In this document: piece by piece, positions 3,471 through 41,283 of the stretch
Position numbering within the stretch: position 1 is the first letter of the stretch
How the letters are laid out: each line of letters opens with the position of its first letter
Origin: Methylicorpusculum oleiharenae
GTDB taxonomy: Bacteria > Pseudomonadota > Gammaproteobacteria > Methylococcales > Methylomonadaceae
DNA: 64,000 nucleotides
Direction of reading: 5' to 3'
NCBI RefSeq assembly: GCF_009828925.2
Contig: NZ_WUTY02000001.1
Span: 1,952,492-2,016,491, forward strand
Translations under genes and position numbers: made by a program
Notes under the pieces: model-generated
The model's input: the letters and a program-made list of their open reading frames with translations, nothing else
Told to the model about the DNA's origin: nothing
Database searches by the model: none

Positions 3471-3519
3471 AGACAGGACAGGCCACTGTCTTTTTCAAGC
3501 AACTGTGAGGGCGTTCGCC

Positions 3520-27579: not shown

Positions 27580-28797
27580 ATGACTCAGCCAAAAGCCAAT
27601 CGAATTGCAGTATTCGTTGACGCCGAAAATGTCACAAACTGGATCAAGCGCGACGGCGTCAGATTACTGATGGAAGAGCTAAATCAGATTGGTCAGATCA
27701 TTATCCGTCGCGCTTACGGTGTTTGGAGCAAGCCCAATTTGGCGATGCACCAAGCCGCTATCAATCAGTCCGGGTTTGAGCTCATCCACTGCTACCATCC
27801 CGTGTCAGGAAAGAATACGGCGGATATTCAGATGACGGTGGATGTCATTGAATGCGCCTGGCAATTACCGAACATTTCCTGCTTTGTGCTGGTCACCGGC
27901 GACTCAGACTTTACGCCAGTCTTTCGCCGACTCAGAGAGATGGACAAAGATGTCATTGGCGTTGGTCAGCATTCGACATTGAGCGAATGCGTGAAGACCT
28001 CGTGCACTCGGTTTATTTACACGGACGAGGTCATAAACACATTGGTCATTAATGTAGTTCTGCCACAAGCGCCCCTGGCACTGCAGCCATTAACGAATTC
28101 CCAACCAACGCTTACGCTAGCAAAGGCTGATGAATGGGTCATTGCCCACTTGAAGGCATCACCCACACCAGTCAATGCATCGCAAATCAAGACGTTGCTC
28201 AAGCAACATGCGGCCGACTTCGACGAAAAGCATTACGGCTTTAAAACGTTTACCGATTATCTAAAAGCCAACGACGCTATTGAAGTCAGCAAAAGCGGTA
28301 CGGTTAATTTCGCCAATCTGGCAAAGTCAGTTCAACCGACCGAAAAAACTGAAGTCGTTGCCAGCGCGGAGGGCTATAAAGCCCTGCTAAAAAAATACAA
28401 TGCGCTTCCAGACAATGCCGACACGCTGAAGATAATTTTTAAACACGCCGTTACCTTGAAGGACATCTGTACTGATCCGGCACAATTTAGAACGGCATTA
28501 TTCATACTGTGCCATAAGGCTGACCCGAACATTAGCAAAACGACCGTTAACAAAGCGTTTTCCTATTTTATGGTCATGGGATTGGTACATACTGAAAAGG
28601 CTAAAGGTGGCGTCGATGCCGTTCGTGTGAAAAAAATGGTATTGAAGGATTTTTTATTGAAATCTGACAAGTTGGTCATCGCCAAGCTACTGGAACTTGG
28701 CAAAACCCAGGCCTTGGATTTGAAAGCCAAGGAAATCAAGAAACTTTTGCTGTCAACGATCAGTAAAGACAGTATTAAGAAACTGATTGGTGAATGA
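27580..28797 (+). CDS. NYN-domain (LabA/DUF88) protein with an OST-HTH/LOTUS-like region
   Basis: A 405-residue protein. Residues 1-150 are a NYN (PIN-like) nuclease: RIAVFVDAENVTNW, KNTADIQMTVDVIECAW and FVLVTGDSDFTPVFRRLRE carry the acidic residues D14, D78-region and D105/D107-region. Residues about 180-250 (DEWVIAHLKASPTPVNASQI, then FDEKHYGFKTFTDYLKAND) look like an OST-HTH/LOTUS domain. The C-terminal 140 residues are helical and not recognised. It has its own 225-base upstream gap and is the last cargo gene before the backbone resumes. An RNA-cutting role is inferred from the fold. Confidence 0.82.
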   Translation: MTQPKANRIAVFVDAENVTNWIKRDGVRLLMEELNQIGQIIIRRAYGVWSKPNLAMHQAAINQSGFELIHCYHPVSGKNTADIQMTVDVIECAWQLPNISCFVLVTGDSDFTPVFRRLREMDKDVIGVGQHSTLSECVKTSCTRFIYTDEVINTLVINVVLPQAPLALQPLTNSQPTLTLAKADEWVIAHLKASPTPVNASQIKTLLKQHAADFDEKHYGFKTFTDYLKANDAIEVSKSGTVNFANLAKSVQPTEKTEVVASAEGYKALLKKYNALPDNADTLKIIFKHAVTLKDICTDPAQFRTALFILCHKADPNISKTTVNKAFSYFMVMGLVHTEKAKGGVDAVRVKKMVLKDFLLKSDKLVIAKLLELGKTQALDLKAKEIKKLLLSTISKDSIKKLIGE

Positions 28798-28994
28798 AGC
28801 AGGATGAACCAACGGATGATGTGTTCATCTAGCGACTCAACTCATGTCCGCTAATACGGTAATAAGCGCTTCTTAGGAGACTTGGATCCGCCAAATTTAG
28901 CATTTGACTTAAATTATTGTCATGTATAGGTGTCAATAAATATGAATTCAGTTGTTTGAGCGGAGTTTGTAAAAAGTGTGCATGTTAATCAGCG

Positions 28995-29195
28995 TTACCT
29001 CGGTTTTATCCCATGTACTTCCAGGTTCGCTCTGATCATTTCCCCCACGGCCTGCATGCGATAAGCCTCTTCATCATCGACAGCCTGACTGCGAAAATCA
29101 GCAAATCCAGTTCGCTTTAGAAATTGCGCCAAATCCCAAGCCTCCTGTTCGGATAACGAAACACTCAAGCATATTTCACCCGGATTAACGGTCAT
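28995..29195 (-). CDS. Small ICE backbone protein of unknown function
   Basis: A 66-residue acidic protein (MTVNPGEICLSVSLSEQEAW..., ending HGIKPR). No motif that I can name. It overlaps the preceding AcaB/PFL_4669-like gene by 4 bases (ATGA), so it is translated with it. The 197 bases between it and the NYN gene, with which it converges, show no clear feature. Confidence 0.6.
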   Translation of the reverse strand: MTVNPGEICLSVSLSEQEAWDLAQFLKRTGFADFRSQAVDDEEAYRMQAVGEMIRANLEVHGIKPR

Positions 29196-29860
29196 TGCGC
29201 ACCCGCCTTATCCGAGTCGGTCTGATCAATTACTGAATCCTCCTCTTCGGAAAGCCGCTCTGGCTCAGCCAACAGTCCCGACTCTTGCCTGGCCAACCTT
29301 ACCGCCTCCCCATGCCCTTGTTCATACGCTGCCTGATGCGCATGTTTTTCCATCGTCACAATTTTATTGGCCAGTCGCTGCAAGCGCTGCTGCCACTGAA
29401 GGCGTGCTTCAATGCAATGTTTGTTGGAGATAACCTGGCACAACCACAAGGTGTCCATGACGATCATTAATTGGTCCAGCAAACGAATCAACTCGACGAA
29501 TTGCGCAATCTGCGGCGAGGCAATTTTTGCGACAAATTCCCGAGGGTGGGTATAGGTAGGCGTTTCGGTGATGCCGTTGTCGGCCTTGAGTTTTTCCAGC
29601 CGGCTCTTTTCCTGCTGCAGCTGCTCCGCGCATTCGACAATCATCTGACTGACGAGGCTTTCGATTTCATCGACGGTTTCCTCACGGCCAATAATCCGCA
29701 GGATCACGTCGATCGCATACAAGGACACCATCAGCCGATGATAGCTGTTGCGAATGACGCGAATGGCTTGTTCGCTATTCACAGCAAATGTGCGTTGAAA
29801 AATCGGCCGACTGATGGCGCGACGCGGGGCTGATTTTGGCTGTGGAGCTGTTTCGGACAT
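29192..29860 (-). CDS. AcaB / PFL_4669-like integrating conjugative element protein
   Basis: A 222-residue protein, starting at the ATG at 29860 (MSETAPQPKSAPRRAISRPIF). Core: FAVNSEQAIRVIRNSYHRLM, VSLYAIDVILRIIGREETVD, then IASPQIAQFVELIRLLDQLM. This agrees with the DUF1845-type family found in ICEs (PFL_4669) and in IncA/C AcaB, a transcription activator with a ribbon-helix-helix fold in the published case. I therefore regard it as an ICE regulator candidate, at moderate confidence. It is divergent from ssb; a 32-base inverted repeat lies 62 bases upstream of its start. Confidence 0.65.
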   Translation of the reverse strand: MSETAPQPKSAPRRAISRPIFQRTFAVNSEQAIRVIRNSYHRLMVSLYAIDVILRIIGREETVDEIESLVSQMIVECAEQLQQEKSRLEKLKADNGITETPTYTHPREFVAKIASPQIAQFVELIRLLDQLMIVMDTLWLCQVISNKHCIEARLQWQQRLQRLANKIVTMEKHAHQAAYEQGHGEAVRLARQESGLLAEPERLSEEEDSVIDQTDSDKAGAQ

Positions 29861-29921
29861 GACTGTTTCCCACGTTGGATAAATGAGCCCTGATCGTAAG
29901 CCAAATTTTTTTCGACCTTTC

Positions 29922-29953
29922 TGCAATAAAGGACGAATTCGACCTTTATTGCA
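29922..29953. promoter_or_regulatory. Perfect 11-base inverted repeat between the AcaB-like gene and ssb
   Basis: TGCAATAAAGG (29922-29932) and CCTTTATTGCA (29943-29953) flank a 10-base spacer that itself holds GAATTC. The arms are also part of a tandem pattern TTCGACCTTT...TGCAA. It lies in the divergent region between the AcaB-like regulator and the ssb leader, where an operator would be expected. Confidence 0.5.
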
Positions 29954-30057
29954 AAATCAGCCCCAAAATTTTCTGCTTCAATACCTGCCAACTGAATCGG
30001 TTAGCCTCCGGCTTGCCTGCTTGTCTAAATTTCTCGGCTGATCTTTCACGATCACCT

Positions 30058-30137
30058 TGATCCGACTTCGGTCGGCGTTCCGTTTTTAAGCGGCGACGGT
30101 GGTTGTCCATCGGCGTGTCAGGTGCGTCAAGCCTGAT
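30058..30137 (+). ncRNA. UUCG-capped conserved leader element, copy A (upstream of ssb)
   Basis: One of three similar 80-base segments (others at 33607 and 39107). It starts with the stem CCGAC-TTCG-GTCGG, continues with the conserved GCGTTCCG and TTAAGCGGC, and ends with TCAGG-TGCGTCAAG-CCTGA. Comparing the copies shows compensatory changes in both stems, so it acts as RNA. It sits 141 bases before ssb. The radC RNA motif of mobile elements should be compared. Function unknown. Confidence 0.6.
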
Positions 30138-30164
30138 GTGATGTTGGTGTTTTAAATTTTCATC

Positions 30165-30278
30165 CTGTCTGGGAGTGCGTATTCCTAGCCGGGAGTGCGC
30201 CTGCCGGAGGTGACCCATCGCCGCGCAGGTGGGTTTTATTTTCATTTGTCGGGCGCGGCCGATTAGGAGGACATCATC
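30165..30278 (+). promoter_or_regulatory. G/C-run leader of ssb
   Basis: After copy A of the UUCG element the ssb leader has GGGAGTGCG twice (30170 and 30191), then CCTGC...GCAGG enclosing GGTGACCCATCGCC, with ACCCA able to pair with the later TGGGT. The strong site TAGGAGG stands nine bases before the ssb ATG. Same leader class as those before bet, exo operon, moxR, DUF3150 and VWA genes. Confidence 0.45.
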
Positions 30279-30707
30279 ATGGCCAATCGTGGTGTAAATA
30301 AAGTCATCTTGCTGGGCCGTCTCGGCGCCGATCCGGATATTCGCTACATGCCGAATAACGGCGGTAAAGTTGTAGCAATTCGCTTGGCAACCAGTGAAGT
30401 TTGGAAAGATGCAAAAAACGCCAAACAGGAACGTACTGAATGGCATCGGGTCGTGTTTTTTAAAAAACTGGCCGATACCGCCGGCGATCTTTTGAAGAAA
30501 GGCAGCAAAATCTATGTGGAAGGCACTCTTCGCACCCAGCAATGGGATAAGAACGGCGAAAAGCGTTACCGCACAGAAGTGGTTGTGCATGAGTTGCAAC
30601 TGCTCGATCGCCCAAGTCCGTCTGCATCTGCAAACGGTTCCTCATTGAACTCGGGGTCAGAAGACGCCGATTGGGATGACGAGTATGCCGACATGCCGCT
30701 CAACTAA
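30279..30707 (+). CDS. ssb: Single-stranded DNA-binding protein
   Basis: A 142-residue OB-fold protein ([20 protein letters not shown], then [17 protein letters not shown] and [15 protein letters not shown]). It protects single-stranded DNA during transfer and works with Bet and Exo, which follow. The acidic C-terminal tail reads [16 protein letters not shown]: where SSB normally ends in ...IPF, this one ends in MPLN, so the terminal Phe that binds SSB partners is missing. The strong TAGGAGG site decides the start. Confidence 0.95.
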
Positions 30708-30757
30708 ATCCATGCGTTACATGCGCTGCCACAAGCACGGGTAAATTTTAACTTACT

Positions 30758-30786
30758 GCCGAACAGTCTGAACTGTTTCGGCTTTT
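30758..30786 (+). terminator. Rho-independent terminator after ssb
   Basis: GCCGAACAGT-CTGA-ACTGTTTCGGC stem (one bulge) followed by TTTT, 51 bases after the ssb stop and directly before the bet leader. Confidence 0.7.
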
Positions 30787-30793
30787 CAACCCA

Positions 30794-30852
30794 AAGGGGA
30801 CGACCATCCCCGTTGGGGTCATGGCGTTCCCATTTTGATAAGGAGACCCACC
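30794..30852 (+). promoter_or_regulatory. G/C-run hairpin leader of bet
   Basis: An outer stem GGGGACG(A)CCAT / ATGGCGTTCCC (one bulge) encloses CCCC-GTT-GGGG; the G4 run at 30796 can also pair with the C4 run at 30808 instead. The AAGGAG site follows, 6 bases before the ATG. Confidence 0.5.
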
Positions 30853-31908
30853 ATGAGCAATCAAAACCGAAACTATCCCCCTAAGTCGCGCGACTTACCC
30901 ATGCCTATGGCAGCCCAGCAAGGCTATGGCATTTCGGAGCAGTCCTGGAAGGTATTGACGGAAGTCACCTTTCCGACGGCTAAAACCCCGGAAGCCATTC
31001 TAATGGCGCTGGATTATTGCAAGGCCCGCAAGCTCGACATCTTCAAAAAGCCGGTGCATATCGTGCCGATGTGGAGTGCCGCTTTAGGCCGCAATGTCGA
31101 AACCGTCTGGCCGTCCATCATGGAAATCCAGACGACTGCGTCCCGAACCGGTGTTTGGGCCGGCATGGACAGACCCGTTTGGGGTCCGGATATCACCAAA
31201 ACCTTTACCGGGCGCTACAAGGACGATAACGAGCAATGGCAGGAATCCAGTGTCACCGTGACCTTTCCCGAATGGGTGGCGGTTACTGTGTATCGGATCG
31301 TCGGTGGCAAACGTTGCGCCTTTACCGAGGAAGTCTATTGGCTAGAAGCCTACAGCACCGCTGGCGGTAAACACTCGCACGTGCCGACCGCCATGTGGAT
31401 CAAACGCCCCAAGGGGCAATTATCCAAATGCGGTAAAGCCGCGTCGCTCAGAGCCGCCTTTCCGGAGGAATGCGGTTATGCCGCCGAGGAAATGGCTGGC
31501 AAAACCCTTGACGATATTGCCGACGGTAGCGTAATCGATGGCAGTGCCACGCTTGTGAATGCAGCCGAGGTTGGCAGTGACGATTACGTTTTGGGTGGCG
31601 ATGCTGGCGTTGATGCAAATCGTGTCATCGATCTGTCGCAAATCCATCCCAAGGTGCAAAAAGCGGTCGCTGAACTGGTTAGACGTACCAGAGCGGCTGG
31701 CGCCTGGAAAGCCGCCTACGACTATGCCCATCAAAAGTTCAGCGGTATCGATCTGACCTTTGCCCTGGCCGAGTTGGACAAGGTATCGGAAGTTGAACCC
31801 AGAACGACACCTGCATTGGGCCAAACGGAAGCGACCGCCATGCCGCCATTGACACCGAAAGATATGGCCATGACACAGGCGCGTCAGGCTTTGGGTGCCA
31901 ACCGTTAG
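30853..31908 (+). CDS. bet: Phage recombination protein Bet (RecT family)
   Basis: A 351-residue single-strand annealing protein. The core matches Bet/RecT proteins: ISEQSWKVLTEVTFPTAKTP, ALDYCKARKLDIFKKPVHIV and MWIKRPKGQLSKCGKAASLR, with AAFPEECGYAAEEM. It pairs with the Exo nuclease downstream for homologous recombination, as bet/exo do in SXT (s065/s066). The C-terminal region (about 265-351) is less conserved. I start at the ATG at 30853 (AAGGAG site), not the earlier in-frame codon at 30835, which lies inside the leader. Confidence 0.92.
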   Translation: MSNQNRNYPPKSRDLPMPMAAQQGYGISEQSWKVLTEVTFPTAKTPEAILMALDYCKARKLDIFKKPVHIVPMWSAALGRNVETVWPSIMEIQTTASRTGVWAGMDRPVWGPDITKTFTGRYKDDNEQWQESSVTVTFPEWVAVTVYRIVGGKRCAFTEEVYWLEAYSTAGGKHSHVPTAMWIKRPKGQLSKCGKAASLRAAFPEECGYAAEEMAGKTLDDIADGSVIDGSATLVNAAEVGSDDYVLGGDAGVDANRVIDLSQIHPKVQKAVAELVRRTRAAGAWKAAYDYAHQKFSGIDLTFALAELDKVSEVEPRTTPALGQTEATAMPPLTPKDMAMTQARQALGANR

Positions 31909-32010
31909 TCATTTCACTGTATAGGGCTGTCCCGTTGCTTAATCACGCCATCGGCTAAGCCATTTTCATACTGATGTGTGCTGGATTCCAGCTTCCGTCA
32001 CATTCAACTA

Positions 32011-32083
32011 CCACCCCTTCAGGGCGTCATGACTCGCCCGTGTGGGGATTCATGATGCTCTGAGTTTTTTGTAAGGAGAGATC
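32011..32083 (+). promoter_or_regulatory. G/C-run hairpin leader before the 111-residue gene
   Basis: CCCC (32014) pairs with GGGG (32044) as the outer stem; inside, GGGCG (32022) pairs with CGCCC (32035). The run TCATG occurs in the loop and again after the outer stem. AAGGAGA lies 5 bases before the ATG. The rest of the 175-base gap after bet shows nothing else clear. Confidence 0.5.
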
Positions 32084-32419
32084 ATGAATGCAATCGATCA
32101 ATCATTGAACCGGCTGCCCTGTCATACCGATTGGCAGCGTTACGACTCACCCACGGTGCTTCGCCGGCATGGGCGCGGTTTTTTAGAACGCCTGTGGCGA
32201 CCCCAGAGCAACGAATCCAATCCACAACCCTTGAGCCAACCGGAACTGACGTCACTGGCCGAGAGTTTTGGCGGAATCTGTCTGCCGATGCAAGACGAAC
32301 TGCTGTTGCTATTCGGCGATGGCCATTGGGCCCGGCGTTGCCAGACCCATTTGCAGAAGCTCGGTATCGAAACGGTGCGCTTCGGTTGTCAGGTGCAGTT
32401 GACCGGATTTTCGCGATGA
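32084..32419 (+). CDS. Unknown small ICE protein, coupled to exo
   Basis: A 111-residue protein (MNAIDQSLNRLPCHTDWQRY...). The C-terminal half (SFGGICLPMQDELLLLFGDG, then WARRCQTHLQKLGIETVRFG) looks like a compact alpha/beta fold. I do not recognise the family. The stop overlaps the exo ATG (ATGA), so it is translated with the exonuclease; a role in the recombination module is inferred only from this. Confidence 0.7.
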   Translation: MNAIDQSLNRLPCHTDWQRYDSPTVLRRHGRGFLERLWRPQSNESNPQPLSQPELTSLAESFGGICLPMQDELLLLFGDGHWARRCQTHLQKLGIETVRFGCQVQLTGFSR

Positions 32420-33417
32420 AGGTCATTGATGTTTCGCAACGGTCTGCTGCCTGGCGGCACTGGCGTTCACAAGGCGTCAGTGCCAGTGAAGCCGCCATCG
32501 TCATGAACCGCTCGCCCTACAAAACCCCGTGGCGGCTCTGGGCCGAGAAAATCGGCCTGGTGCTGGAAGCCAGCCTGGATAACAACCCGTTGATCCGCGC
32601 CGGCATCCAGCAAGAGCCCGCGGCTTTGCAACGCTTCGAGGACAAACACGATCAAATGTTGTTGCCGCTGTGCGGCGAGTCGGAACAGTATCCGTTGATG
32701 CGGGCTTCGTTCGATGGCTTGTCCGACGCGAATGAACCCGTGGAAATCAAATGTCCGCATGAGACCACGTTTCTGGATGTGCTGTTGAATCGGGAAGCGT
32801 CCGAGGCCTATCAACTGTATTGGTGCCAGGTGCAACAGCAGCTGTTGGTGTCCGAAGCGCAACGCGGTTTTCTATTCTTCTACCACCAAGGTCAGGACAT
32901 CGAGTTCGAAATTCAGCGCGATGAGACTTTTCTCACCAAGCTGGTCGAGTCCGCGATGGACTTCTGGTCGGCGGTCCAATCCAAAAAGGAGCCGAACAAG
33001 GATCCCGAACGTGATTTGTACTTGCCCAAAGGTGATGCGGAGCAGCAATGGCAACAGCTGGCGGCGAGTTATCGCAACCGTGCCGTGAAAATCGCGGATT
33101 TGAAAGCGGAGCTAGCCACCTTGGAGGCGAGTCAGGCGGCCATTGAAAACACGTTGGTGTTGCTGATGGGCGATTACGTGGCCGCAGAGCATTCCGGGTT
33201 GCGGATCAGCCGCTTTCAAAGCCAGGGCGCCATCGATTACAAGGTGGCACTTCACGCCTTGCAACCGGCTGTTCAGGCTGCGGCGCTGGAAGTTTACCGA
33301 AAACCGTCGGCCACACGGGTCCGCGTGACTTGCCGGGACGACGACGGCAAACATGCCGAAGTGCCGTTCGATGCCCAAGCCTTGCAAGACCTGGCGGGTG
33401 TGGACTTTTGGTTTTGA
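32416..33417 (+). CDS. exo: YqaJ/lambda-exonuclease-like recombinase nuclease (Exo)
   Basis: A 333-residue PD-(D/E)xK nuclease of the YqaJ/lambda Exo type. RSAAWRHWRSQGVSASEAAI and 'YKTPWRLWAEK' are the family N-terminus; the catalytic Asp is in MRASFDGLS and the E-x-K in EPVEIKCPHE. It degrades one strand to give Bet its substrate, as s066 does in SXT. The C-terminal region is helical (DLKAELATLEASQAAIENTL) and ends in LAGVDFWF, a tail also seen in two neighbours. The start at 32416 overlaps the previous stop. Confidence 0.88.
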   Translation: MKVIDVSQRSAAWRHWRSQGVSASEAAIVMNRSPYKTPWRLWAEKIGLVLEASLDNNPLIRAGIQQEPAALQRFEDKHDQMLLPLCGESEQYPLMRASFDGLSDANEPVEIKCPHETTFLDVLLNREASEAYQLYWCQVQQQLLVSEAQRGFLFFYHQGQDIEFEIQRDETFLTKLVESAMDFWSAVQSKKEPNKDPERDLYLPKGDAEQQWQQLAASYRNRAVKIADLKAELATLEASQAAIENTLVLLMGDYVAAEHSGLRISRFQSQGAIDYKVALHALQPAVQAAALEVYRKPSATRVRVTCRDDDGKHAEVPFDAQALQDLAGVDFWF

Positions 33418-33432
33418 TAGTTCGTTTCAAGA

Positions 33433-33461
33433 CATCCTGTAACCCTGGTGGTTACGGGATG
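33433..33461 (+). terminator. Strong 12-base-pair hairpin after exo, terminator-like
   Basis: CATCCTGTAACC-CTGGT-GGTTACGGGATG pairs over 12 bases (one G.U) and is followed by TTCATT. The T-run is weak. Rest of the 342-base gap: a UUCG element at 33607 and a leader at 33694. Confidence 0.5.
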
Positions 33462-33606
33462 TTCATTGATTGATGGCCGGCCAAGCTAGTTGACGCCGGA
33501 CACCTGATGGAATCATTCAGTTTAGGTATGTCGGTTTTAGGCTGAGCTTTTAAAAAAAGTCCAACCCAAAACCCGCATCGTTCAGGCATTCCCTTCGTGG
33601 AATCCC

Positions 33607-33684
33607 GAATCCGGTTTCGACCGGCGTTCCGTTGTTAAGCGGCATGAGCGTTTGTCTCGTGTGCCAGGTGCGTCAAGCCTGGTG
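33607..33684 (+). ncRNA. UUCG-capped conserved leader element, copy B
   Basis: Stem CCGGT-TTCG-ACCGG (in copies A and C CCGAC-TTCG-GTCGG), conserved GCGTTCCG and TTAAGCGGC, and a closing stem CCAGG-TGCGTCAAG-CCTGG (TCAGG...CCTGA in copy A). Both stems show paired base changes, which supports an RNA structure. It lies 75 bases before the 70-residue gene at 33760. Confidence 0.6.
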
Positions 33685-33693
33685 TTTTTGTTT

Positions 33694-33759
33694 GTCCCGT
33701 TGGGGTTCATCACCCTCACGGGACTCGGTGACCCCTTTTAACCATTGAAGGAGGTCATT
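33694..33759 (+). promoter_or_regulatory. Leader with two mutually exclusive pairings before the 70-residue gene
   Basis: Form 1: GTCCCGT (33694) pairs with ACGGGAC (33718), enclosing GGGGT/ACCC. Form 2: GGGG (33702) and TCACC (33710) pair with GGTGA (33727) and CCCC (33732). Both cannot exist at once, which suggests a switch. AAGGAGG lies 6 bases before the ATG. Confidence 0.5.
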
Positions 33760-33972
33760 ATGAATCACGACTTTTGGAAAACCTTGCACGGCTGGTTGAA
33801 CGTTGCCCCTAGCGACGACATTCAGGCCAAAAAGCGTTTGCTGCTGGATCTGCACCGTCAACTTTCAGACCCCGGTTTGAGAAGCGATATTCAGCGCATC
33901 GTGCGTTTGATGGATCGGGAGCTATTGGCCCGCGCCGAATGGGCGATGTACTGCGTGATGCAGTTGCGTTAA
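33760..33972 (+). CDS. Unknown 70-residue ICE protein
   Basis: A small protein (MNHDFWKTLHGWLNVAPSDD...) with a helical pattern. No family recognised. A strong AAGGAGG site decides the ATG at 33760; the upstream codon at 33745 lies in the leader. It is bounded by a UUCG element and leader upstream and a clear terminator downstream, so it is probably expressed on its own. Confidence 0.65.
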   Translation: MNHDFWKTLHGWLNVAPSDDIQAKKRLLLDLHRQLSDPGLRSDIQRIVRLMDRELLARAEWAMYCVMQLR

Positions 33973-33983
33973 TTTCTTTATCT

Positions 33984-34004
33984 ACCCTGGTTTGCCAGGG
34001 TTTT
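33984..34004 (+). terminator. Rho-independent terminator
   Basis: ACCCTGG-TTTG-CCAGGGT perfect stem followed by TTTT, 12 bases after the 70-residue gene. Confidence 0.75.
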
Positions 34005-34009
34005 AATCA

Positions 34010-34083
34010 CCCGTTGGGGCTCATTTCCCCCACCGGGGCGGTGCGCCCCTTGTTATCTGAGGCTTAGCCTCGAGGAGTTCACC
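34010..34083 (+). promoter_or_regulatory. G/C-run leader of the MoxR gene
   Basis: CCCGTTGGGG (34010), then CTCAT and CCCCCACCGGGG, aligns base for base with the leader at 33694. It continues with GGGGCG-GTG-CGCCCC (34035-34049) and GAGGC-TTA-GCCTC (34059-34071) ending just before the GAGGAG site. Confidence 0.5.
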
Positions 34084-35025
34084 ATGGTTCAATTTTATTC
34101 AATTGCCGATACCTTCGGCATACCTGCACCGGCCTCCATGAAAGTGGAAGGCTTTAGCCCAGAACAAAATGCCTATGTGCCTGCGCAAAAACCCTATGTG
34201 TTTCGTAAGGACCACTTGCGCGATGTGTTGGCGTTTTTAGGCGCTCACAATGGCGACGGCTTATACCTGACCGGTCCCACCGGCTCCGGCAAAACGTCGT
34301 TATTGGAGCAAGTCGCGGCGCGTTTGCATTGGGGCGTGCATTCGGTCACCGGCCACGGTCGACTGGAACTCAATGATCTGCTCGGCCAGTACATGCTGGT
34401 CGACGGCGGCGCGATGAAGTGGATCGATGGCCCGTTGACCTTGGCAGTACGCCTGGGGCATGTGTTGTTGATCAACGAGATCGATGCCATCGATCCGGCA
34501 GAGCTGATTGGTTTGAATGAAATCGTCGAAGGAAAACCTCTGACGATTCCGCAGACTGGCGCTGTGATTACCCCGCATCCCAAGTTTCGTTTGGTTGCCA
34601 CCGGCAATAGTGCTGGCAGCGGCGATCAATCGGGATTGTATCAAGGGGTGTTGCGGCAAAACTTGGCGTTTTTAGACAGGTTTAGACTGATGGAAGTCGG
34701 TTACCCCGAACCCGAAGATGAAATGAAATTGTTGGCCGATGCAGTGCCGAGTATGCCGGAAACGGTGCGCGAAAGCATGATCAAGGTCGCCAATCAGATT
34801 CGGAAAGTCTTTATCGGCGGCGCGGATGGCGGCGGCATGTTGTCGGTGACCTTGTCCACGCGCGGTTTAGTGCGCTGGGCATCGTTGGTCGCCACCTTCA
34901 AAAGTGCGCCGAATGCCTTGGCTTACTCGCTGGACCGGGCCTTGACCTTTCGCGCTGAACCCGCCGAACGTGAAGCGATTCATCGCATCGCCAAAGATGT
35001 GTTTGGCGATGACTGGCAGGTCTAG
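34084..35025 (+). CDS. MoxR/CbbQ-like AAA+ ATPase (CobS-like)
   Basis: A 313-residue AAA+ protein. Walker A is GPTGSGKTSLLEQ (about residues 61-68), Walker B LLINEIDAIDP, sensor I ATGNSAGSG and sensor II-region further on. Such ATPases act with VWA-domain proteins as chaperone pairs; here the VWA protein is encoded 3 kb downstream with two linking genes. It resembles the CobS-like backbone gene of SXT. Start fixed by the GAGGAG site; it is followed 2 bases later by the next gene. Confidence 0.92.
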   Translation: MVQFYSIADTFGIPAPASMKVEGFSPEQNAYVPAQKPYVFRKDHLRDVLAFLGAHNGDGLYLTGPTGSGKTSLLEQVAARLHWGVHSVTGHGRLELNDLLGQYMLVDGGAMKWIDGPLTLAVRLGHVLLINEIDAIDPAELIGLNEIVEGKPLTIPQTGAVITPHPKFRLVATGNSAGSGDQSGLYQGVLRQNLAFLDRFRLMEVGYPEPEDEMKLLADAVPSMPETVRESMIKVANQIRKVFIGGADGGGMLSVTLSTRGLVRWASLVATFKSAPNALAYSLDRALTFRAEPAEREAIHRIAKDVFGDDWQV

Positions 35026-35027
35026 TC

Positions 35028-35795
35028 ATGGCTACCTGGAATCTCTATCGTCATCGTAAACCTGACGGCAGTTCCAAAGACTGGGCGGTCAAGAGTAATT
35101 CGGATGGTTCGATCACCACCCGTTGGGGCAAAACGGCATCCAAATTACCGGGTGTCAGTAACCGACGCGGGATTAGGCAATTCGTCATCGAAAAGCAAAA
35201 ACTGGCCAAAGGCTATGTGTTTATTGCCGAGGTGGAAATTGATGGTGACGGCAATGTGGTGTTTCCGGGTAAGACTGCGGCAACGCCATCACAATTGCCT
35301 GAACCTGATGCAAATCCCGTGTTTGTGCCAGCACCGCCAGTCGAAGCATTGTATTGGACCGTTGATTGTCGAGCAAAGCGCGCGGTCCGAGTGGACTTGA
35401 GTATCGAGGTCAGGCGACTGATCGGGGTTATTCAATCCGTCTCAGATCAGGAAGCTAAGCCTGAACAAGATTGGGATGGCTGGCAACAGTGGATTGATGC
35501 CACCTTCAATGCTGAAGTCTTTGAACTCAGTGGTCAGATCAAATCAGCCCACGGCGTTTTGCCTTGGTTGTTTTTACTGGCGCTGAAAGCAAAAGGTTTT
35601 AACGGCGTGGAGATTGATATAGTCACCGAAACCGCCCGAGACCTCTCGGTCGATCTGAAAGTTGAACAGGACGTGCTGGCATTTTTCGGCACCGATCTGG
35701 ACAGCATTCGTGACACCGCAGAAGCCTTAGGTTTGCTCAAACCCCGCTTAAATCTGGCAGCGGCCATGTCCGACACGGACGACTGCTGGTTTTAA
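35028..35795 (+). CDS. WGR-like domain protein
   Basis: A 255-residue protein. Its N-terminus has a WGR-type pattern: SDGSITTRWGKTASKLPG and later FVIEKQKLAKGYVFIAEVE, in the KxKGY arrangement of WGR domains. The rest is not recognised. The C-terminus is acidic and ends SDTDDCWF, matching tails of exo and the DUF3150 neighbour. It starts 2 bases after the MoxR gene, so both are one unit. A DNA-binding role is inferred from the WGR-like start. Confidence 0.7.
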   Translation: MATWNLYRHRKPDGSSKDWAVKSNSDGSITTRWGKTASKLPGVSNRRGIRQFVIEKQKLAKGYVFIAEVEIDGDGNVVFPGKTAATPSQLPEPDANPVFVPAPPVEALYWTVDCRAKRAVRVDLSIEVRRLIGVIQSVSDQEAKPEQDWDGWQQWIDATFNAEVFELSGQIKSAHGVLPWLFLLALKAKGFNGVEIDIVTETARDLSVDLKVEQDVLAFFGTDLDSIRDTAEALGLLKPRLNLAAAMSDTDDCWF

Positions 35796-35824
35796 CCGGT
35801 TTGTTATTTTCATTTAACCCGAAA

Positions 35825-35877
35825 GGGGCATACCAGCCCTTACGGGGTTCTGTGTGCCTCTTTCCAAGGAGGTTCAC
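35825..35877 (+). promoter_or_regulatory. G/C-run hairpin leader of the DUF3150 gene
   Basis: GGGGCATAC (35825) pairs with GTGTGCCTC (35852) over nine positions (two G.U) and encloses CCC-TTAC-GGGG. CAAGGAGG lies before the GTG start. Confidence 0.5.
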
Positions 35878-36942
35878 GTGACACAAGCTAATATCATTCT
35901 GGACCATGTGGTCTTGGTAAAAGTGGACGCCACTATCTACGGCGCCCGTAAGAAACTGAAAAAAGAAGACCTGGTGCTGGCCGACGGTAGCAAACTACCA
36001 CCGGAGGACTTAGCCAGCTTAGGGTCTAAACGTTTGCTCGATCCCGATAAGCTGACAGTATTTAACCGCCTGAAGAAGGAAGCCGAACGCATTTGTTTGC
36101 GGGTTGGTACTCGCTTTTTGGGCGGTTTTGCCGTACCGGTCGAATCGGCCGCCAGTATTACCGCGGAACTCGAGCGTATTGCGCTGGATTTTGCCGCGGC
36201 TAAAACCGAGTTTATTGCCGGTTACGATGCGGCGGTAACAGACTGGGTGGTTCGCCATCCGGAGTTTGCCGGCATCATCGAAAAAGCGGTGGATTCGGTG
36301 GAGTTTGTCTTAACGCGGTTGTCGTTCGATTACCTGGTGGTGTCGATCGCTTTGCCGGAGAGTCTGCCCGAGAAAGAGATCGAGCGACTGGAAAGCAAGA
36401 TTGGCTCACTGAGTGGACAGCTGTTCCATGAAATCGCGGTGGACGCCAATTTGTTGGTTGAGCAATCACTCTTAGGCAAGGAGCAAGTGACGCGCAGTGC
36501 GTTACGTCCGATCAAGCGTATCCGCGACAAGTTGGATGGCCTGGGCTTTCTGGATCATCGGGTGGCACCGATCGTCAGCACCATCGACGATTTGCTGGCG
36601 AGAATCCCTAACAAAGGCGCCATTGAAGGCAGTATTTTGCAGGAGATCCTGGCTACGGCCATGCTGTTGTCCGATCCGGATAAAACTCGGCGGCACGGTG
36701 AAGGCTTGTTGGTGGCTCAACCGCCTGTTGATGATGAAGAAGTCATCGAATACGCGGAGCCCGAGCCATCAGCAGTACTCGTCATACCAACAGCACCAAC
36801 GCCGGTCATCACTGAAACCGCTTCAAACACTCCCGATTTTACCGATCTGTTTGAAGGTATCTTTGATGATGAATTTGAAGCGGAGTCGACAGCGGATGAC
36901 TGGGCGCTTGAGGTCTTGCTGGATAAAAGTCAGACCGATTAG
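35878..36942 (+). CDS. DUF3150-domain ICE protein
   Basis: A 354-residue protein (MTQANIILDHVVLVKVDATI...), with YGARKKLKKEDLVLADGSKL near the start, which is typical of DUF3150 proteins in ICEs. The middle is coiled and the C-terminus acidic. The GTG at 35878 has a strong AAGGAGG site; the earlier ATG at 35854 lies inside the leader. It ends at a TAG (36940-36942), but the frame continues 39 more codons to an acidic tail ending DPDYWF. Located between the MoxR and VWA genes, it is probably part of that module. Confidence 0.85.
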   Translation: MTQANIILDHVVLVKVDATIYGARKKLKKEDLVLADGSKLPPEDLASLGSKRLLDPDKLTVFNRLKKEAERICLRVGTRFLGGFAVPVESAASITAELERIALDFAAAKTEFIAGYDAAVTDWVVRHPEFAGIIEKAVDSVEFVLTRLSFDYLVVSIALPESLPEKEIERLESKIGSLSGQLFHEIAVDANLLVEQSLLGKEQVTRSALRPIKRIRDKLDGLGFLDHRVAPIVSTIDDLLARIPNKGAIEGSILQEILATAMLLSDPDKTRRHGEGLLVAQPPVDDEEVIEYAEPEPSAVLVIPTAPTPVITETASNTPDFTDLFEGIFDDEFEAESTADDWALEVLLDKSQTD

Positions 36943-37062
36943 GTAACCGATACCTTTTCAGATGAATCCAACCTTTCTCAGCATTCAGCAGAACCGGCAA
37001 CGGTGACTGCGGGAGACGATGAGGAGACTGACGATTCCGACCCCGATTACTGGTTCTAATCG
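36943..37062 (+). other. In-frame extension of DUF3150 gene behind a TAG codon
   Basis: The sequence after the TAG at 36940-36942 stays open (VTDTFSDESNLSQHSAEPAT, then VTAGDDEETDDSDPDYWF) and ends in TAA at 37060-37062. The composition is the same acidic, Ser/Thr/Glu-rich one as before the TAG, and the final x-W-F matches the ends of two neighbouring ICE proteins. It therefore looks like the natural end of the gene, behind a recent nonsense change or a recoded/suppressed amber codon. Confidence 0.55.
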
Positions 37063-37083
37063 GACACCCTTTAACTAATAACC

Positions 37084-37143
37084 CACTGGGGCAAATTCAT
37101 GTCCCTTCGGGGTCATGGTTTGCCCCAGTGTTTGGAGCACACC
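37084..37143 (+). promoter_or_regulatory. Perfect 12-base-pair hairpin leader of the VWA gene
   Basis: CACTGGGGCAAA (37084-37095) and TTTGCCCCAGTG (37119-37130) are perfectly complementary and enclose CATG-TCCCTTCGGGGT-CATG. The GGAG site stands four bases after the stem. Confidence 0.6.
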
Positions 37144-38955
37144 ATGAAAAATAGAACTTTACACAACGCATTTCCCATTGTCGCGGCCGCCATTGGCAAT
37201 CGCTTTGGCATCAAAGTCAGCGTTGGGGGCGATCAAGCTTTTACCGATGGCCGGTCGATTCAACTACCGGCCTATGAGGGTGACGATCCGGATTATCAGG
37301 AGGTTGCCTGGGGACTTTTAGCCCATGAAGCGGCGCATATTCGCTATTCGGATTTTACGCTTCACTATGGCAATTCAGTCTTACGGAGACGGTTATGTAA
37401 TGCGATTGAAGATGTGCGCATCGAGCACGAACTGGCCAAAGACTTTCCGGGTACGCGGCTGACAATACGCACGGTGATTGAAAAGATGATTGTTAAAGGC
37501 GACTTTGTGGCCAACAGCATTGATGATCATCCGGCCAACATTTTGTACAGCTTTGTCTTGAAAAGCTTGCGTGCCCGGGTACTGGGTCAAACAGCCTTAG
37601 TGCCGTTGGTCGAGCAAACCGAAGTGGCATTGAAGGCGAAGTATCCGAAAGGTGCCGTAACGCGGTTGAAAGGATTGTTGTCGGAAGTGCCGGAAGAATT
37701 GCAATCCGAGTCCGATTGTTTGCAGTTGACCGATCGTATTCTGACCATGATTGAACAGGAATTCGAGCAAGAGCGGCAGCGTAATAAGGCCCAGCCATCG
37801 GCAGATGAGGACACGTCACCTGAATCGGATGAGACCGATCAGGACGAAGAATCAGAAGACTCGAATGGCTCGGATGCCCAGGAAGAAATGGAACGCGATG
37901 AACGGTTACCCAACGACAGTGTCGACGATCTGTCTTCAGAATCGTCGGGTAATGATGATGCGAATCCTGAAAATCCTGACGATGAAACGAAATCAGTTTC
38001 CAATAGTACTTCATCCAACCTGCAAATGGATGATGAAGATGTTACGGAGATTCTCGACCCGATGGGCGTCTTGGAAACCCTGTTGTCCGCCGGAGACAGT
38101 GACATCGAACAGGATTTATTCGAATCGCTGAAATCGGCGTTGTCGTTGGCGGCGGAAAATGTATCGGAATTGCTGATGCCCAGTGACCACGAGCCGCCGA
38201 TGGATGAGCGAGCCGGGACTTTTTTGCTGCGCAAGGTGCAAAGCGAATCGGGGAAAATCCGCGCCGCTTTGCAAGGCTTGGTGCAATCGCAAGCTCTGAA
38301 CCGCTGGCAACACGCCTGTCGTGGACGGCGTATGGATGGCAAGCGTTTACACCGTTTGCCACTCGGCGAAACCAAGTTGTTCCAGCGCAAACAAGCTAAA
38401 TCAGCACCCAATACGGCCATCCATCTGTTACTCGATAAATCCGAAAGCATGGGTTATCAAGTGACCGATAGCCAAGGTCAACCCATAGGATTGCGGATGC
38501 CGATTGCGTTGGAAGCCACCTTGGCGCTGGCTTTGGCTTTTGAAGGGATTCCGGGGGTAAATCCTGGCGTCACTGCGTTTCCGGGGCATCAGGATGATTC
38601 GGTGTTCCGCTTGCTAGCGCATGGCCAACGCGTCAATGCCCGAACCGGTGCCTTTTCGCTGGCCGCTTCTGGTAGCACGCCGATGACTGAGGCGCTTTGG
38701 TTTGGCGCCGCATCGCTGTTGCGTTGCCGGGAACCGCGCAAAGTGTTGATGGTGATGACCGATGGTCAGCCCAACGACACTTTGAGCACGCTGGAACTTT
38801 TACAACGCTGCCGGGATAGTGGTATTGAAACGATAGGTATAGGTTTGGGCTTGGATGTCAGCCATCTGTTCCCGATTGCCATCACCATTAACGATCTATC
38901 AGAGCTGAGAGCACAATTGTTCAATCTGTCGAAAGCGGTGTTGTTGGCAGCGTAA
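37144..38955 (+). CDS. VWA-domain protein with an N-terminal HExxH motif (CobT-like)
   Basis: A 603-residue protein. The N-terminal domain carries HEAAH in LLAHEAAHIRYSDF (about residue 66), a zincin-type metal site; a matching third ligand is unclear. A long acidic, low-complexity linker (about 225-320) follows. The C-terminal VWA domain has the MIDAS motifs DKSESM (about 427), a Ser/Thr in SGSTPMTEAL and the later TDGQPND. CobT-like proteins of this build pair with MoxR/CobS ATPases, as in SXT. Start fixed by the GGAG site; the in-frame codon at 37099 lies in the leader hairpin. Confidence 0.9.
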   Translation: MKNRTLHNAFPIVAAAIGNRFGIKVSVGGDQAFTDGRSIQLPAYEGDDPDYQEVAWGLLAHEAAHIRYSDFTLHYGNSVLRRRLCNAIEDVRIEHELAKDFPGTRLTIRTVIEKMIVKGDFVANSIDDHPANILYSFVLKSLRARVLGQTALVPLVEQTEVALKAKYPKGAVTRLKGLLSEVPEELQSESDCLQLTDRILTMIEQEFEQERQRNKAQPSADEDTSPESDETDQDEESEDSNGSDAQEEMERDERLPNDSVDDLSSESSGNDDANPENPDDETKSVSNSTSSNLQMDDEDVTEILDPMGVLETLLSAGDSDIEQDLFESLKSALSLAAENVSELLMPSDHEPPMDERAGTFLLRKVQSESGKIRAALQGLVQSQALNRWQHACRGRRMDGKRLHRLPLGETKLFQRKQAKSAPNTAIHLLLDKSESMGYQVTDSQGQPIGLRMPIALEATLALALAFEGIPGVNPGVTAFPGHQDDSVFRLLAHGQRVNARTGAFSLAASGSTPMTEALWFGAASLLRCREPRKVLMVMTDGQPNDTLSTLELLQRCRDSGIETIGIGLGLDVSHLFPIAITINDLSELRAQLFNLSKAVLLAA

Positions 38956-39034
38956 TCTTCAGTCGGTTATCCGTAGCCCAATCCTTGGCTCAATGCCTTG
39001 GCTTGTGGCTAGGGGTAACTGATTGCAACCGCAG

Positions 39035-39074
39035 TTTGTCGAATGCACTCACTTCCTAGAGCCCATTCGACAAA
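39035..39074. repeat. Perfect 11-base inverted repeat in the gap after the VWA gene
   Basis: TTTGTCGAATG (39035) and CATTCGACAAA (39064) with an 18-base loop. ATTCGACAAAC also occurs near the end of the methyltransferase gene (21,243). It looks like a dispersed repeat (REP) rather than a terminator, since no T-run follows. The 353-base gap otherwise holds the UUCG element and the leader below. Confidence 0.45.
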
Positions 39075-39106
39075 CAGACATTTCATGCGTTCTTTTTAAG
39101 AATGCT

Positions 39107-39186
39107 GAATCCGACTTCGGTCGGCGTTCCGTCTTTAGGCGGCGAGCATGTTAATCGTGATCGTGTCGGGTGCGTTAAGCCTGATG
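39107..39186 (+). ncRNA. UUCG-capped conserved leader element, copy C
   Basis: Same CCGAC-TTCG-GTCGG stem as copy A; the closing stem is TCGGG-TGCGTTAAG-CCTGA, in which A-U to G-U keeps the pairing. GCGTTCCG and TTAGGCGGC are conserved. It lies 122 bases before the gene at 39309. Confidence 0.6.
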
Positions 39187-39226
39187 AAAAATGCAGTTTG
39201 CCATTAGCAAAGTGTCTGCAATTCAT

Positions 39227-39308
39227 CCCGCTTCGGGCGACCATCACCCGGCTGGGTGCTGTTGTTTATTCGAAGTGGTTTCTGTGTCTTTATCTAAGGA
39301 GAACGTCC
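39227..39308 (+). promoter_or_regulatory. G/C-run leader before the 178-residue gene
   Basis: CCCG-CTT-CGGG, then GACCAT, then CACCC-GGCT-GGGTG, in the same order as the leader at 32011. AAGGAGA is placed eight bases before the ATG. Confidence 0.45.
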
Positions 39309-39845
39309 ATGAACTTTATCTTTGGCATCATACTTTTGGCGGTGTTTATACTTGCCCTGCGAGTCCTTTGGGCAACGGCGTGGCAACTGCTGAGTGCATT
39401 GAAACAAGCGTATCGAGCGTTTTACCACTCTCGTGCCCAGCGATCGGCGCGAAACCGGTTACCGGTCGTCATGCCCCAAATCCGTCATGAGGTGGATTGG
39501 TTGGCGCTGTCCGAGTCGGTCCGCCAGGGAATCCAGACCCGCAACGCAGGTTCCAATCGGCAAGTTGATCGATTGGACCTGGAGTTGCAGGTAAAAACCA
39601 AAACCATGGAACTCATCAAGGCCGATATTCAAATGGCCAAGCTGCAACTGGAATTGGAAAAAGTCAGACCGACGGTGGTTTTAGATGCGTCGAAAGCCGG
39701 TAAACGGACAAAACGCTCGAAAAAAACCGCCTTGGAGATGGAGGGTGATTTATCCAAATCATCCCATCCGGTGCGTCAATTGAGGACTGCTCTCAAGTCT
39801 GGCAATGGCCAGGTGATTCAGGATAATGAGCTCGCCCGCCATTGA
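39309..39845 (+). CDS. Membrane-anchored coiled-coil protein, unknown
   Basis: A 178-residue protein with one N-terminal membrane segment (FIFGIILLAVFILALRVLWA) and a long charged cytoplasmic region with a coiled coil (LDLELQVKTKTMELIKADIQ and onward). The C-terminus is basic. Not recognised as a family. The ATG at 39309 follows AAGGAGA. Its 3' end overlaps the convergent 135-residue gene by 53 bases. Confidence 0.7.
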   Translation: MNFIFGIILLAVFILALRVLWATAWQLLSALKQAYRAFYHSRAQRSARNRLPVVMPQIRHEVDWLALSESVRQGIQTRNAGSNRQVDRLDLELQVKTKTMELIKADIQMAKLQLELEKVRPTVVLDASKAGKRTKRSKKTALEMEGDLSKSSHPVRQLRTALKSGNGQVIQDNELARH

Positions 39846-40200
39846 AAACCGACCACTGAGCACCCGTTTGGGTTTTGACGAGACGGACGGGGCTTCTATT
39901 GGTCGGTTCTTCAAATTGAGTTGGCAACAGGTCTGAGGGTAACAAAGCCGCAAGATCGTGTTGGCTTTCGCGCCTGAGTTGGCGAATACGGCTTAATAGT
40001 GACCAAGCCATTTCTGGATCGTCAATATCCTTCAGGACTTCTGCTTCGGCGGCATCCAAATCAGCCAATAATTTTTTGCATATGAGGATAGCTTGATCGT
40101 TGCAATCCCGCAGGATCGCGATCGGTTTTTTCGTTGGACTCGGCTCCTGGGTCTGCTTAGGACTGAGGAAATCAAAAATGCGCAAAATATCGTCAAACAT
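39793..40200 (-). CDS. Unknown 135-residue protein, convergent
   Basis: A soluble protein (MFDDILRIFDFLSPKQTQEP...), with helices around LICKKLLADLDAAEAEVLKD and a hydrophilic tail. No family recognised. Support for being real: an independent promoter-like sequence at 40236-40262 and plausible amino-acid usage. Against: it overlaps the neighbour by 53 bases and its ribosome binding site is weak (AGAGAAA). Confidence 0.55.
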   Translation of the reverse strand: MFDDILRIFDFLSPKQTQEPSPTKKPIAILRDCNDQAILICKKLLADLDAAEAEVLKDIDDPEMAWSLLSRIRQLRRESQHDLAALLPSDLLPTQFEEPTNRSPVRLVKTQTGAQWSVFNGGRAHYPESPGHCQT

Positions 40201-40235
40201 GGCTATTTCTCTACTTTTTAGTGAGTTTTAGCTAC

Positions 40236-40262
40236 ATTATACCGATTTTTGCGTAAATTCAA
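40236..40262 (-). promoter_or_regulatory. Promoter of the 135-residue gene
   Basis: TTGAAT at -35, 15 bases, then a perfect TATAAT on the minus strand, 35 bases before the ATG. Confidence 0.45.
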
Positions 40263-40308
40263 CCCCGCTGCATAGGCCTATTTATGGCTTTGAACAGCGT
40301 TTTTAACG

Positions 40309-40351
40309 CGCAGGAACCTCATCCTGCCGGAGGGTCGTTCCTGCGTTTTTT
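40309..40351 (+). terminator. Attenuator- or terminator-like hairpin with T-run
   Basis: CGCAGGAAC (40309) pairs perfectly with GTTCCTGCG (40337) and is followed by TTTTTT. It is upstream of a gene and not after one on the plus strand, which suggests leader attenuation. The 323-base gap also contains a 13-codon ORF and a second long stem. Confidence 0.55.
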
Positions 40352-40358
40352 GGAGGAC

Positions 40359-40400
40359 ATGACCCTGTCATCGACATTAGAAAATGGCGATGGCCTGTAA
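40359..40400 (+). CDS. Possible 13-residue leader peptide
   Basis: MTLSSTLENGDGL with TGGAGG seven bases before the ATG. The end of the ORF overlaps AATGGCGAT (40383-40391), which pairs perfectly with ATCGCCATT (40423-40431). Translation would block that 9-base stem. Position after the T-run hairpin suggests a translation-controlled leader; unproven. Confidence 0.3.
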   Translation: MTLSSTLENGDGL

Positions 40401-40460
40401 ATACAATCAATGGGGGTGTTAAATCGCCATTGATGTAGTACTCATTTTTTATCGAACCCA

Positions 40461-40523
40461 ACGGGAATGTCAGTTTCCCGGCGGGGATTCGTGATATTTC
40501 CGTTTTTCATCGAGGAAATCATC
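40461..40523 (+). promoter_or_regulatory. G/C-run hairpin leader before the 168-residue gene
   Basis: ACGGGAATGTCA (40461) pairs with TGATATTTCCGT (40492) over 12 positions (two G.U) and encloses CCC-GGC-GGGG. Same architecture as the leaders of bet and the VWA gene. GAGGAAA precedes the ATG. Confidence 0.5.
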
Positions 40524-41030: not shown

Positions 41031-41058
41031 TCGCCTTCTTTAATGCGAGTGGCAGGAC

Positions 41059-41097
41059 AAAAAGCGTCGACATCCTCAAGGGTGCGGCGCTTTTTTT
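41059..41097 (+). terminator. Rho-independent terminator before the activator operon
   Basis: AAAAAGCG (41059) pairs with CGCTTTTT (41088), then further T. It separates the preceding gene from the FlhDC-like region. Confidence 0.7.
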
Positions 41098-41188
41098 GTG
41101 ATCCTTGTCACAAATATTGCTCCGAGATGCCATTTTGTGCGGATTTTTTACCAACCGCTAGCCAACACCCGACAAACGCTCTCGAGTT

Positions 41189-41210
41189 AAGTGACCTGAA
41201 GCGGTCACTT
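41189..41210. promoter_or_regulatory. Perfect inverted repeat upstream of the FlhD-like gene (candidate operator)
   Basis: AAGTGACC-TGAAGC-GGTCACTT has 8-base perfect arms. A weak -10 (CATAAT, near 41244) lies downstream, so a protein bound here would control the master activators. The binding protein is not in this window. Confidence 0.5.
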
Positions 41211-41283
41211 TCCGTGTGAGACTTTTCCAGCTTGTCTTCCTAGCATAATGGCCAACCTTAGCATTTGCAGCGGAGTTAGCCTC

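Follow-up and report, generated by a model that had tools for sequence, protein, structure and literature searches.

A conserved five-hairpin structure repeated upstream of three gene groups of a putative integrative conjugative element in Methylicorpusculum oleiharenae

Three copies of a structured segment

A stretch of 64,000 nucleotides (nt) of the Methylicorpusculum oleiharenae genome (contig NZ_WUTY02000001.1, positions 1,952,492 to 2,016,491), referred to here as the window, carries three copies of a conserved structure of five hairpins, P0 to P4. The structure measures about 105–120 nt, is encoded on the sense strand and stands upstream of three gene groups, once each. These groups, operons A, B and C, begin with the genes ssb, orfB and orfC, respectively. 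Judging from its position, each copy probably lies in an operon's 5′ untranslated RNA, for which reason it is called a leader below. The parts of the three copies are as follows, with scores against R1, the covariance model of the three window copies.

30036..30057, plus strand, hairpin P0 of copy A, the weakest of the three P0 hairpins (from folding and the covarying consensus)
30058..30140, plus strand, core hairpins P1–P4 of copy A, before ssb (93.5 bits)
33585..33606, plus strand, hairpin P0 of copy B (from folding and the covarying consensus)
33607..33686, plus strand, core hairpins P1–P4 of copy B, before orfB and cobS (94.6 bits)
39087..39105, plus strand, hairpin P0 of copy C (from folding and the covarying consensus)
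39107..39188, plus strand, core hairpins P1–P4 of copy C, before orfC (100.3 bits)

A preliminary description of the sequence had reported three segments of about 80 nt at 30058, 33607 and 39107 sharing sequence and hairpins, and they lie where it placed them. The stems also read as it described: the first is CCGAC-TTCG-GTCGG in copies A and C and CCGGT-TTCG-ACCGG in copy B, while the closing stem pairs TCAGG with CCTGA in A, CCAGG with CCTGG in B and TCGGG with CCTGA in C. Distances to the genes, given as 75–141 nt, agree to within one base with the 139 (A), 74 (B) and 121 nt (C) that separate the end of the core from the start codon. Two points needed amendment. The last loop, written as TGCGTYAAG, is indeed conserved, but its conserved part is better written GCGNNAA. 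The extent of the segment was right for the core but incomplete, as the further covarying hairpin P0 stands directly upstream.

The motif GGCGTTCCGNNNTTARGCGGC has exactly three matches in the window at up to three mismatches, compared to a mean of 0.14 matches in 100 shuffles of the window, none of which (0/100) contained three. At E ≤ 1 the covariance model found only these three copies in the 5.85-Mb host genome, where 150 of 185 first-look candidates were scored. They sit 3.5 and 5.5 kb apart, one for each gene group and not one for each gene.

Covariation and the coding strand

Single copies fold only moderately better than shuffled sequences (z of −1.23 for A, −2.63 for B and −1.65 for C), a control that is weak when taken alone, and the case for structure therefore rests on the alignment. 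Among 73 distinct sequences, 96.9% of the 1795 cells of core hairpins P1–P4 are paired, and two-sided changes are found at 18 of the 25 core pairs. Cells with two-sided changes number 333, against 105.6 in shuffles and 17–37 in slid controls. Because both types of control leave relatedness in, an additional count was made with one row per 80% cluster: its 19 rows are 97.2% paired, with compensatory change at 21 of the 25 pairs. The 73-sequence alignment, having been fitted to the model, is biased in favour of the structure. Independently of it, 33 chosen sequences extended by 36 upstream bases were aligned with MAFFT, no structure being imposed; the result is five hairpins with two-sided changes at 24 of their 32 pairs. 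In hairpin P0 such changes affect all pairs (7/7), each of which is broken in 1 to 10 of the 33 rows. The conserved unpaired letters are the CGUU linker between P1 and P2 and the GCGNNAA loop of P4; both are kept in locus L065, in which stems P2 and P4 are largely recoded. Covariation well above the shuffled and slid controls, together with copies found in related elements (see below), supports at the level of sequence comparison the earlier proposal of a conserved RNA structure heading several operons of one element.

On the sense strand, G-U cells number 245 (14% of 1795) and A-C cells 9, an excess which indicates that the sense strand is selected and folds as RNA. This bears on the possibility that the segment is a single-stranded DNA element, similar to the Frpo promoter of leading regions, acting in conjugative transfer. 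Its location before ssb and the recombination genes of a conjugative element would be in keeping with such a role, and the authors of the STAXI motif discuss single-stranded DNA for that motif (PMC2864571). However, such an excess of G-U over A-C cells would hardly be expected of DNA hairpins, folding is poorer for the complementary strand than for the sense strand, and UUCG loops are stated in the same work to stabilise RNA and not DNA (PMC2864571). We regard a DNA element as hardly credible.

The host element and its genes

This segment of the window fits an integrative conjugative element of a methanotroph, similar to those of the SXT/R391 family, in view of its transfer genes (traC, traN and traU), its FlhD- and FlhC-like genes and an integrase gene beside a tRNA. 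The FlhD/FlhC-like genes are likely counterparts of setD and setC. Gene order around the leader copies (ssb, recT, YqaJ exonuclease, cobS, DUF3150, cobT) matches that of R997, a member of the SXT/R391 family, in which ssb, bet, exonuclease, ATPase, DUF3150, VWA and radC follow each other with small genes interspersed. Judged by the DUF3150 protein, Methylomonas and other methanotrophs are the closest named relatives; the laboratory Methylomonas strain LW13 has four DUF3150 loci. The genes concerned are listed below.

30279..30707, plus strand, ssb, first gene of operon A (Pfam SSB)
30853..31908, plus strand, recT, Bet-like (Pfam RecT, scanned from 30835; start at 30853 proposed from the Shine-Dalgarno sequence)
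32084..32419, plus strand, open reading frame of 111 amino acids between recT and the exonuclease gene (L113 and L114 have one of similar size at this place)
32416..33417, plus strand, YqaJ-type exonuclease gene (Pfam YqaJ; ATG start at 32416 proposed)
33760..33972, plus strand, orfB, 70 amino acids, first gene of operon B (no Pfam family; present in relatives)
34084..35025, plus strand, cobS-like AAA ATPase gene (Pfam)
35878..36942, plus strand, DUF3150 gene (Pfam, scanned from 35854; GTG start proposed)
37144..38955, plus strand, cobT-like VWA gene (Pfam, scanned from 37099; start at 37144 proposed)
39309..39845, plus strand, orfC, 178 amino acids, first gene of operon C (no Pfam family)
41248 and 41566 (stretch 41248–42192), FlhD- and FlhC-like genes, downstream of operon C
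43523, integrase gene, adjoining the tRNA at 44641–44714

When scanned from 32131, the Pfam YqaJ match starts at residue 108, and the exonuclease gene more likely starts at 32416, behind the 111-amino-acid reading frame, than at 32131 or 32083. Upstream of copy A lies a gene with an NYN domain and an OST-HTH/LOTUS domain (27580–28797). ResIII, DNA methylase and SMC-like ATPase domains are encoded between 14459 and 24029, by genes that probably represent restriction or defence cargo.

Distribution and genomic position

R1 matches 10 of 101 genomes around the host, and a second model, R2, 37 of 311 genomes of the order, the host being included in both counts. At class level R1 matches a single genome of 369, the host itself. 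A third model, R3, matches four of 369 at E ≤ 0.01: the host and three others with E-values of 0.003–0.004, which we read as chance since such values are expected across 369 genomes. At the level of the phylum R2 matches one genome of 398, again the host. These large searches scored 11–45 first-look candidates per genome, so that the counts are lower bounds and diverged copies may have been missed. Helix P4 is correct in R1 and R3 and one column off in R2, which was used for the order, phylum and IMG/VR searches. Viral stretches from IMG/VR provided ten matches to a loose pattern; as none scored better than E 0.12 with R2, these were read as chance and rejected as leader copies.

A set of 47 sources includes 40 loci of DUF3150 relatives from named genomes, six further loci and the window. 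R1 has 85 matches in 33 of these and none in the other 14. Three copies are present in 25 of the 33 loci, two in two and one in six, with some contigs ending inside the region. With the window proteins as guides, 84 of the 85 copies were located at most 1.5 kb upstream of ssb or recT (26), orfB or cobS (32) or orfC (26). In nine of the 32 copies at the orfB/cobS place, cobS is some 690–1290 nt away and other reading frames may intervene. The median spacer between core and start codon is 135 nt for ssb (n = 22), 74 nt for orfB (n = 22) and 112 nt for orfC (n = 26). Two Methylomonas plasmids carry three copies each; they were found by a model search of a plasmid collection in which a DNA search with 30000–30300 gave no match. 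A copy on the contig labelled Methyloversatilis universalis (L062) has the same sequence as another copy, evidently the one in Methylocaldum (L063), and in view of this identity transfer or a misbinned contig is possible.

The nearest non-identical relative of each copy is found at the same operon place in 84 cases of 84, and the leader thus moves with its operon. Homogenisation of copies within an element, which was considered for this leader, is wrong for the same reason. The leader might also be thought of as a precursor of small trans-acting RNAs, released from the transcript and acting on others. A compact structured segment in three copies would suit such RNAs, but the strict correspondence of nearest relatives with operon place speaks against them, and we consider this quite improbable.

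Comparison with known RNA families

The leader matches no catalogued RNA family found in these searches. Kinship had been suggested with the radC motif, which is placed upstream of mobile-element genes. This was not supported: neither RF01754 nor STAXI (RF01728) has a match at E ≤ 10 in the region (29000–42000) or in the whole host genome, or at E ≤ 5 in 15 loci around the copies. With Rfam 15 (4227 families, gathering score) the only match in the window is the tRNA at 44641–44714, and the region contains nothing above the curated score at E ≤ 10. No riboswitch family among those of Rfam matches in the window, the region or the loci around the copies. No description of the leader was found in literature titles and abstract openings dealing with the STAXI and radC motifs, SXT regulation, put and antitermination, Methylomonas and SXT elements, and single-strand promoters, in which subscription journals are thinly covered.

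Of the two motifs, radC is listed for Proteobacteria (PMC2864571). STAXI is described as having UUCG loops and as occurring near ssb and other DNA-handling genes (PMC2864571), and in both respects the leader resembles it. STAXI is, however, described as a pseudoknot in two or three tandem repeats and is listed for Enterobacteriales (PMC2864571), whereas the leader copies are separated by several kilobases (3.5 and 5.5 kb) and their core consists of plain hairpins in a row. Behind the core, a pseudoknot can be drawn by eye.

Hairpins close to the start codons

Another hairpin stands between each leader copy and the start codon, and similar ones precede many genes of the block. These are listed here together with two long hairpins upstream of the leader.

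30198..30231, plus strand, hairpin between copy A and the ssb start (from folding)
30796..30831, plus strand, start-proximal hairpin of recT
32019..32063, plus strand, start-proximal hairpin of the 111-amino-acid reading frame
33533..33573, plus strand, long hairpin upstream of copy B with a U-rich 5′ arm and an A-rich 3′ arm (by eye)
33702..33735, plus strand, start-proximal hairpin of orfB, downstream of copy B
34016..34049, plus strand, start-proximal hairpin of cobS
35825..35860, plus strand, start-proximal hairpin of the DUF3150 gene
37084..37130, plus strand, start-proximal hairpin of cobT
39034..39075, plus strand, long hairpin upstream of copy C (−19.1 kcal/mol)
39228..39278, plus strand, start-proximal hairpin of orfC, downstream of copy C

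The two long, imperfect hairpins (33533–33573 and 39034–39075) lie upstream of P0, both have an arm composition (U-rich 5′, A-rich 3′) opposite to that of a terminator and are possibly the first hairpin of the transcript or leader. Leader A looks more complex than leaders B and C.

In the window, hairpins of −18 kcal/mol or better precede eight of nine block genes compared to three of 33 others. With the same cut, R997 (L112) has them before 10 of the 13 genes between 6989 and 16179 and before three of 48 other listed genes, the gene list being without four features per stretch (transposases, bla, a transporter and cut genes). For recT, cobS, DUF3150 and cobT the 3′ arm of the hairpin is complementary to the gene's own Shine-Dalgarno sequence and start codon. 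Over 71 genes of these four types from 19 loci, the mean duplex with the own start is −14.53 kcal/mol compared to −11.06 kcal/mol when start regions were swapped among genes within a locus, and none of 2000 such permutations gave a mean as low. The same is true (0/2000 each) of the subset with the leader (39 genes, 10 loci) and of that without it (32 genes, 9 loci). The 19 loci were hand-chosen, about one per lineage, and 2 of 96 genes were excluded because their hairpins fell short of −14 kcal/mol; the test counted L114 among the loci with the leader, excluded L113 and omitted yqaJ.

In a ranking of start regions, the own start came first for 61 of 198 genes with the leader (30.0 expected) and for 35 of 65 genes 'without' (13.0 expected), although the latter group included the plasmid loci L113 and L114, in which the leader is present. 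The ranking left out L042, L051 and L056 as near-duplicates, and its yqaJ rows are unreliable since the start was misplaced, as are those behind the hairpin counts above and the terminator scores of the window below. Within the leader group, ssb (3/25), recT (5/29) and orfB (0/19) are at or below chance. The cut of the pairing test is also passed outside the block by endo and thx in L112, by traK, dsbC and traC in L115 and by the window genes at 6729 and 43523, and the pairing test is therefore informative for groups only.

Start-proximal hairpins occur also in elements without the P0–P4 leader, including R997, and the two features are consequently not coupled. The original source of the SXT bet attenuator is reportedly J. 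Bacteriol. 195:1991. A review describes this translational attenuator as strong and as lying upstream of the SXT gene bet (PMC4542580), and by analogy we take the start-proximal hairpins to be translational attenuators of this type. In the window, the recT hairpin occupies the corresponding position and would be the counterpart of this attenuator, a feature separate from the leader; the R997 block has such hairpins as well. This suggests that the SXT bet attenuator is one case of a hairpin preceding many genes of the block.

The main rival to the reading developed in the next section is a post-transcriptional leader, in which P0–P4 would bind a protein or small RNA that governs how stable the three mRNAs are or how well they are translated, one possible target being the hairpin ahead of the first gene. 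It would fit this that each gene group has a single copy and that another hairpin separates this copy from the start codon, as would the published translational control of SXT bet (PMC4542580). Against it, start-proximal hairpins occur elsewhere without the leader and the distance from leader to start differs by place. Moreover, for the genes directly behind the leader (ssb, orfB and orfC), own-start pairing is at chance (340/2000, 17 genes), as it is when these genes are taken over all loci (182/2000, 23 genes). Partly on account of this last result we consider such a leader conceivable, if rather doubtful.

Are these hairpins terminators? A terminator score above zero was obtained for none of nine starts in the window, for six of 56 genes in ten loci with the leader (0/56 shuffled) and for six of 24 genes in five loci with another type of leader described below (0/24 shuffled). 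This score, the presence of the hairpins in elements without the leader and the published attenuator all speak otherwise, and terminators were rejected as a general explanation. The hairpin behind each copy could still be one in particular, with P0–P4 sensing a ligand or protein and choosing between terminator and alternative pairing. By eye, hairpins with U-rich stretches and possible alternative pairings are found behind the copies, and they are pronounced in some relatives, for example L062 and L059. On the other hand, no core strand appears by eye to be shared with the hairpins behind, distances vary by place, few hairpins pass the terminator score and no riboswitch family matches. An attenuator or riboswitch therefore seems unlikely.

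Possible role of the leader

Its position suggests that the leader controls the three operons. Together with the differing spacing, the conserved unpaired letters and the use of another leader type elsewhere, it argues for an action, through a partner, on the transcript or the polymerase. A spacer that depends on the place suggests a trans-acting partner over a base-pair switch with the start region. The best explanation, which we advance tentatively, is a polarity suppressor similar to put, nut or ops that sustains transcription of operons with poor translation. The CGUU linker and the GCGNNAA loop would serve as contacts for RNA polymerase or a regulator, and the leader would convert the transcribing polymerase to a form that is not stopped early. 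Hairpins with a 3′ arm pairing to their own start region would leave distal cistrons poorly translated and prone to Rho-dependent polarity; by means of its three leaders the element could express the three operons jointly. The polarity-suppression step is one that we infer in its entirety; it is favoured because the genes behind the leader are probably weakly translated.

Related systems are known. The put RNA of phage HK022 is present in two copies per genome and suppresses termination without a protein. It is described as about 70 nt long with two stem-loops and as binding the β′ zinc-binding domain of RNA polymerase (PMC9378689). Like it, the leader would be a cis-acting structured RNA near operon starts of a mobile element, although a similar action is only proposed. 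The conAn system of pLS20-type plasmids (conAn2 RNA and ConAn1 protein) also involves an RNA heading an operon of a conjugative element. It is described, however, from Gram-positive bacteria and for one operon of more than 30 kb in which over 20 terminators are found (PMC8955417), whereas the gene groups behind the leader are shorter, three in number and poor in good terminators. RfaH was presented in 2022 as the only processive antitermination system then known for Gram-negative conjugation operons (PMC8955417).

Several observations weigh against polarity suppression. No element-encoded partner of the leader was found, and its consensus has five hairpins compared to the two stem-loops of put. 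Promoter-like sites in 28700–41000 number 5 against 8.8 in shuffles, that is, fewer. Terminator scores are mostly poor, with none above zero in the window, so that few intrinsic terminators would stand in the way; the six of 56 genes with positive scores are of little help. Own-start pairing is at chance for the first genes, and for bet of R997, where the attenuator is published, 10 other start regions of 21 rank as high as its own. The start-proximal hairpins are, in addition, found in elements without the leader, R997 among them. If polarity suppression is nevertheless correct, conjugative elements would coordinate their DNA-recombination operons via RNA, besides activators of the FlhD/FlhC-like (SetCD) type, with the leaders as a compact part of the element.

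A second repeated leader

A search for repeats in seven of the 14 loci without an R1 match revealed another repeated leader in five of these seven methanotroph loci, in three copies in L066, L070 and L073 and in two in L068 and L071; in L058 and L061 it gave no repeated leader. The sequence GTGCCAGTTCAGCAC is unchanged in all 13 of its copies and is followed by AAAT in each. One copy stands directly before cobS in both L068 and L070, and the two copies of L068 show 99% identity along 243 nt. A portion of P0 (CTTTCCAGAATGCT) is also present in L070 and L066, which may reflect a distant kinship of the two leaders. It is possible, though we would not count on it, that in the recombination block of SXT/R391-like elements each operon has an element-borne RNA leader acting as a processive antiterminator or polarity suppressor, and that this task falls to different types of leader in different lineages, much as lambdoid phages do with nut and put.

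Next to this second leader in L073 is a hairpin that seems, by eye, to change in a compensating fashion. The same locus includes, at 3163–3673, seven copies of a repeat with a spacing of 71–77 nt and a constant part of about 37 nt, which looks like a CRISPR array. Positions 1–310 of L070 carry many direct repeats of TGCGGGTTAAACCTACCG, similar to the iterons of a replication origin.

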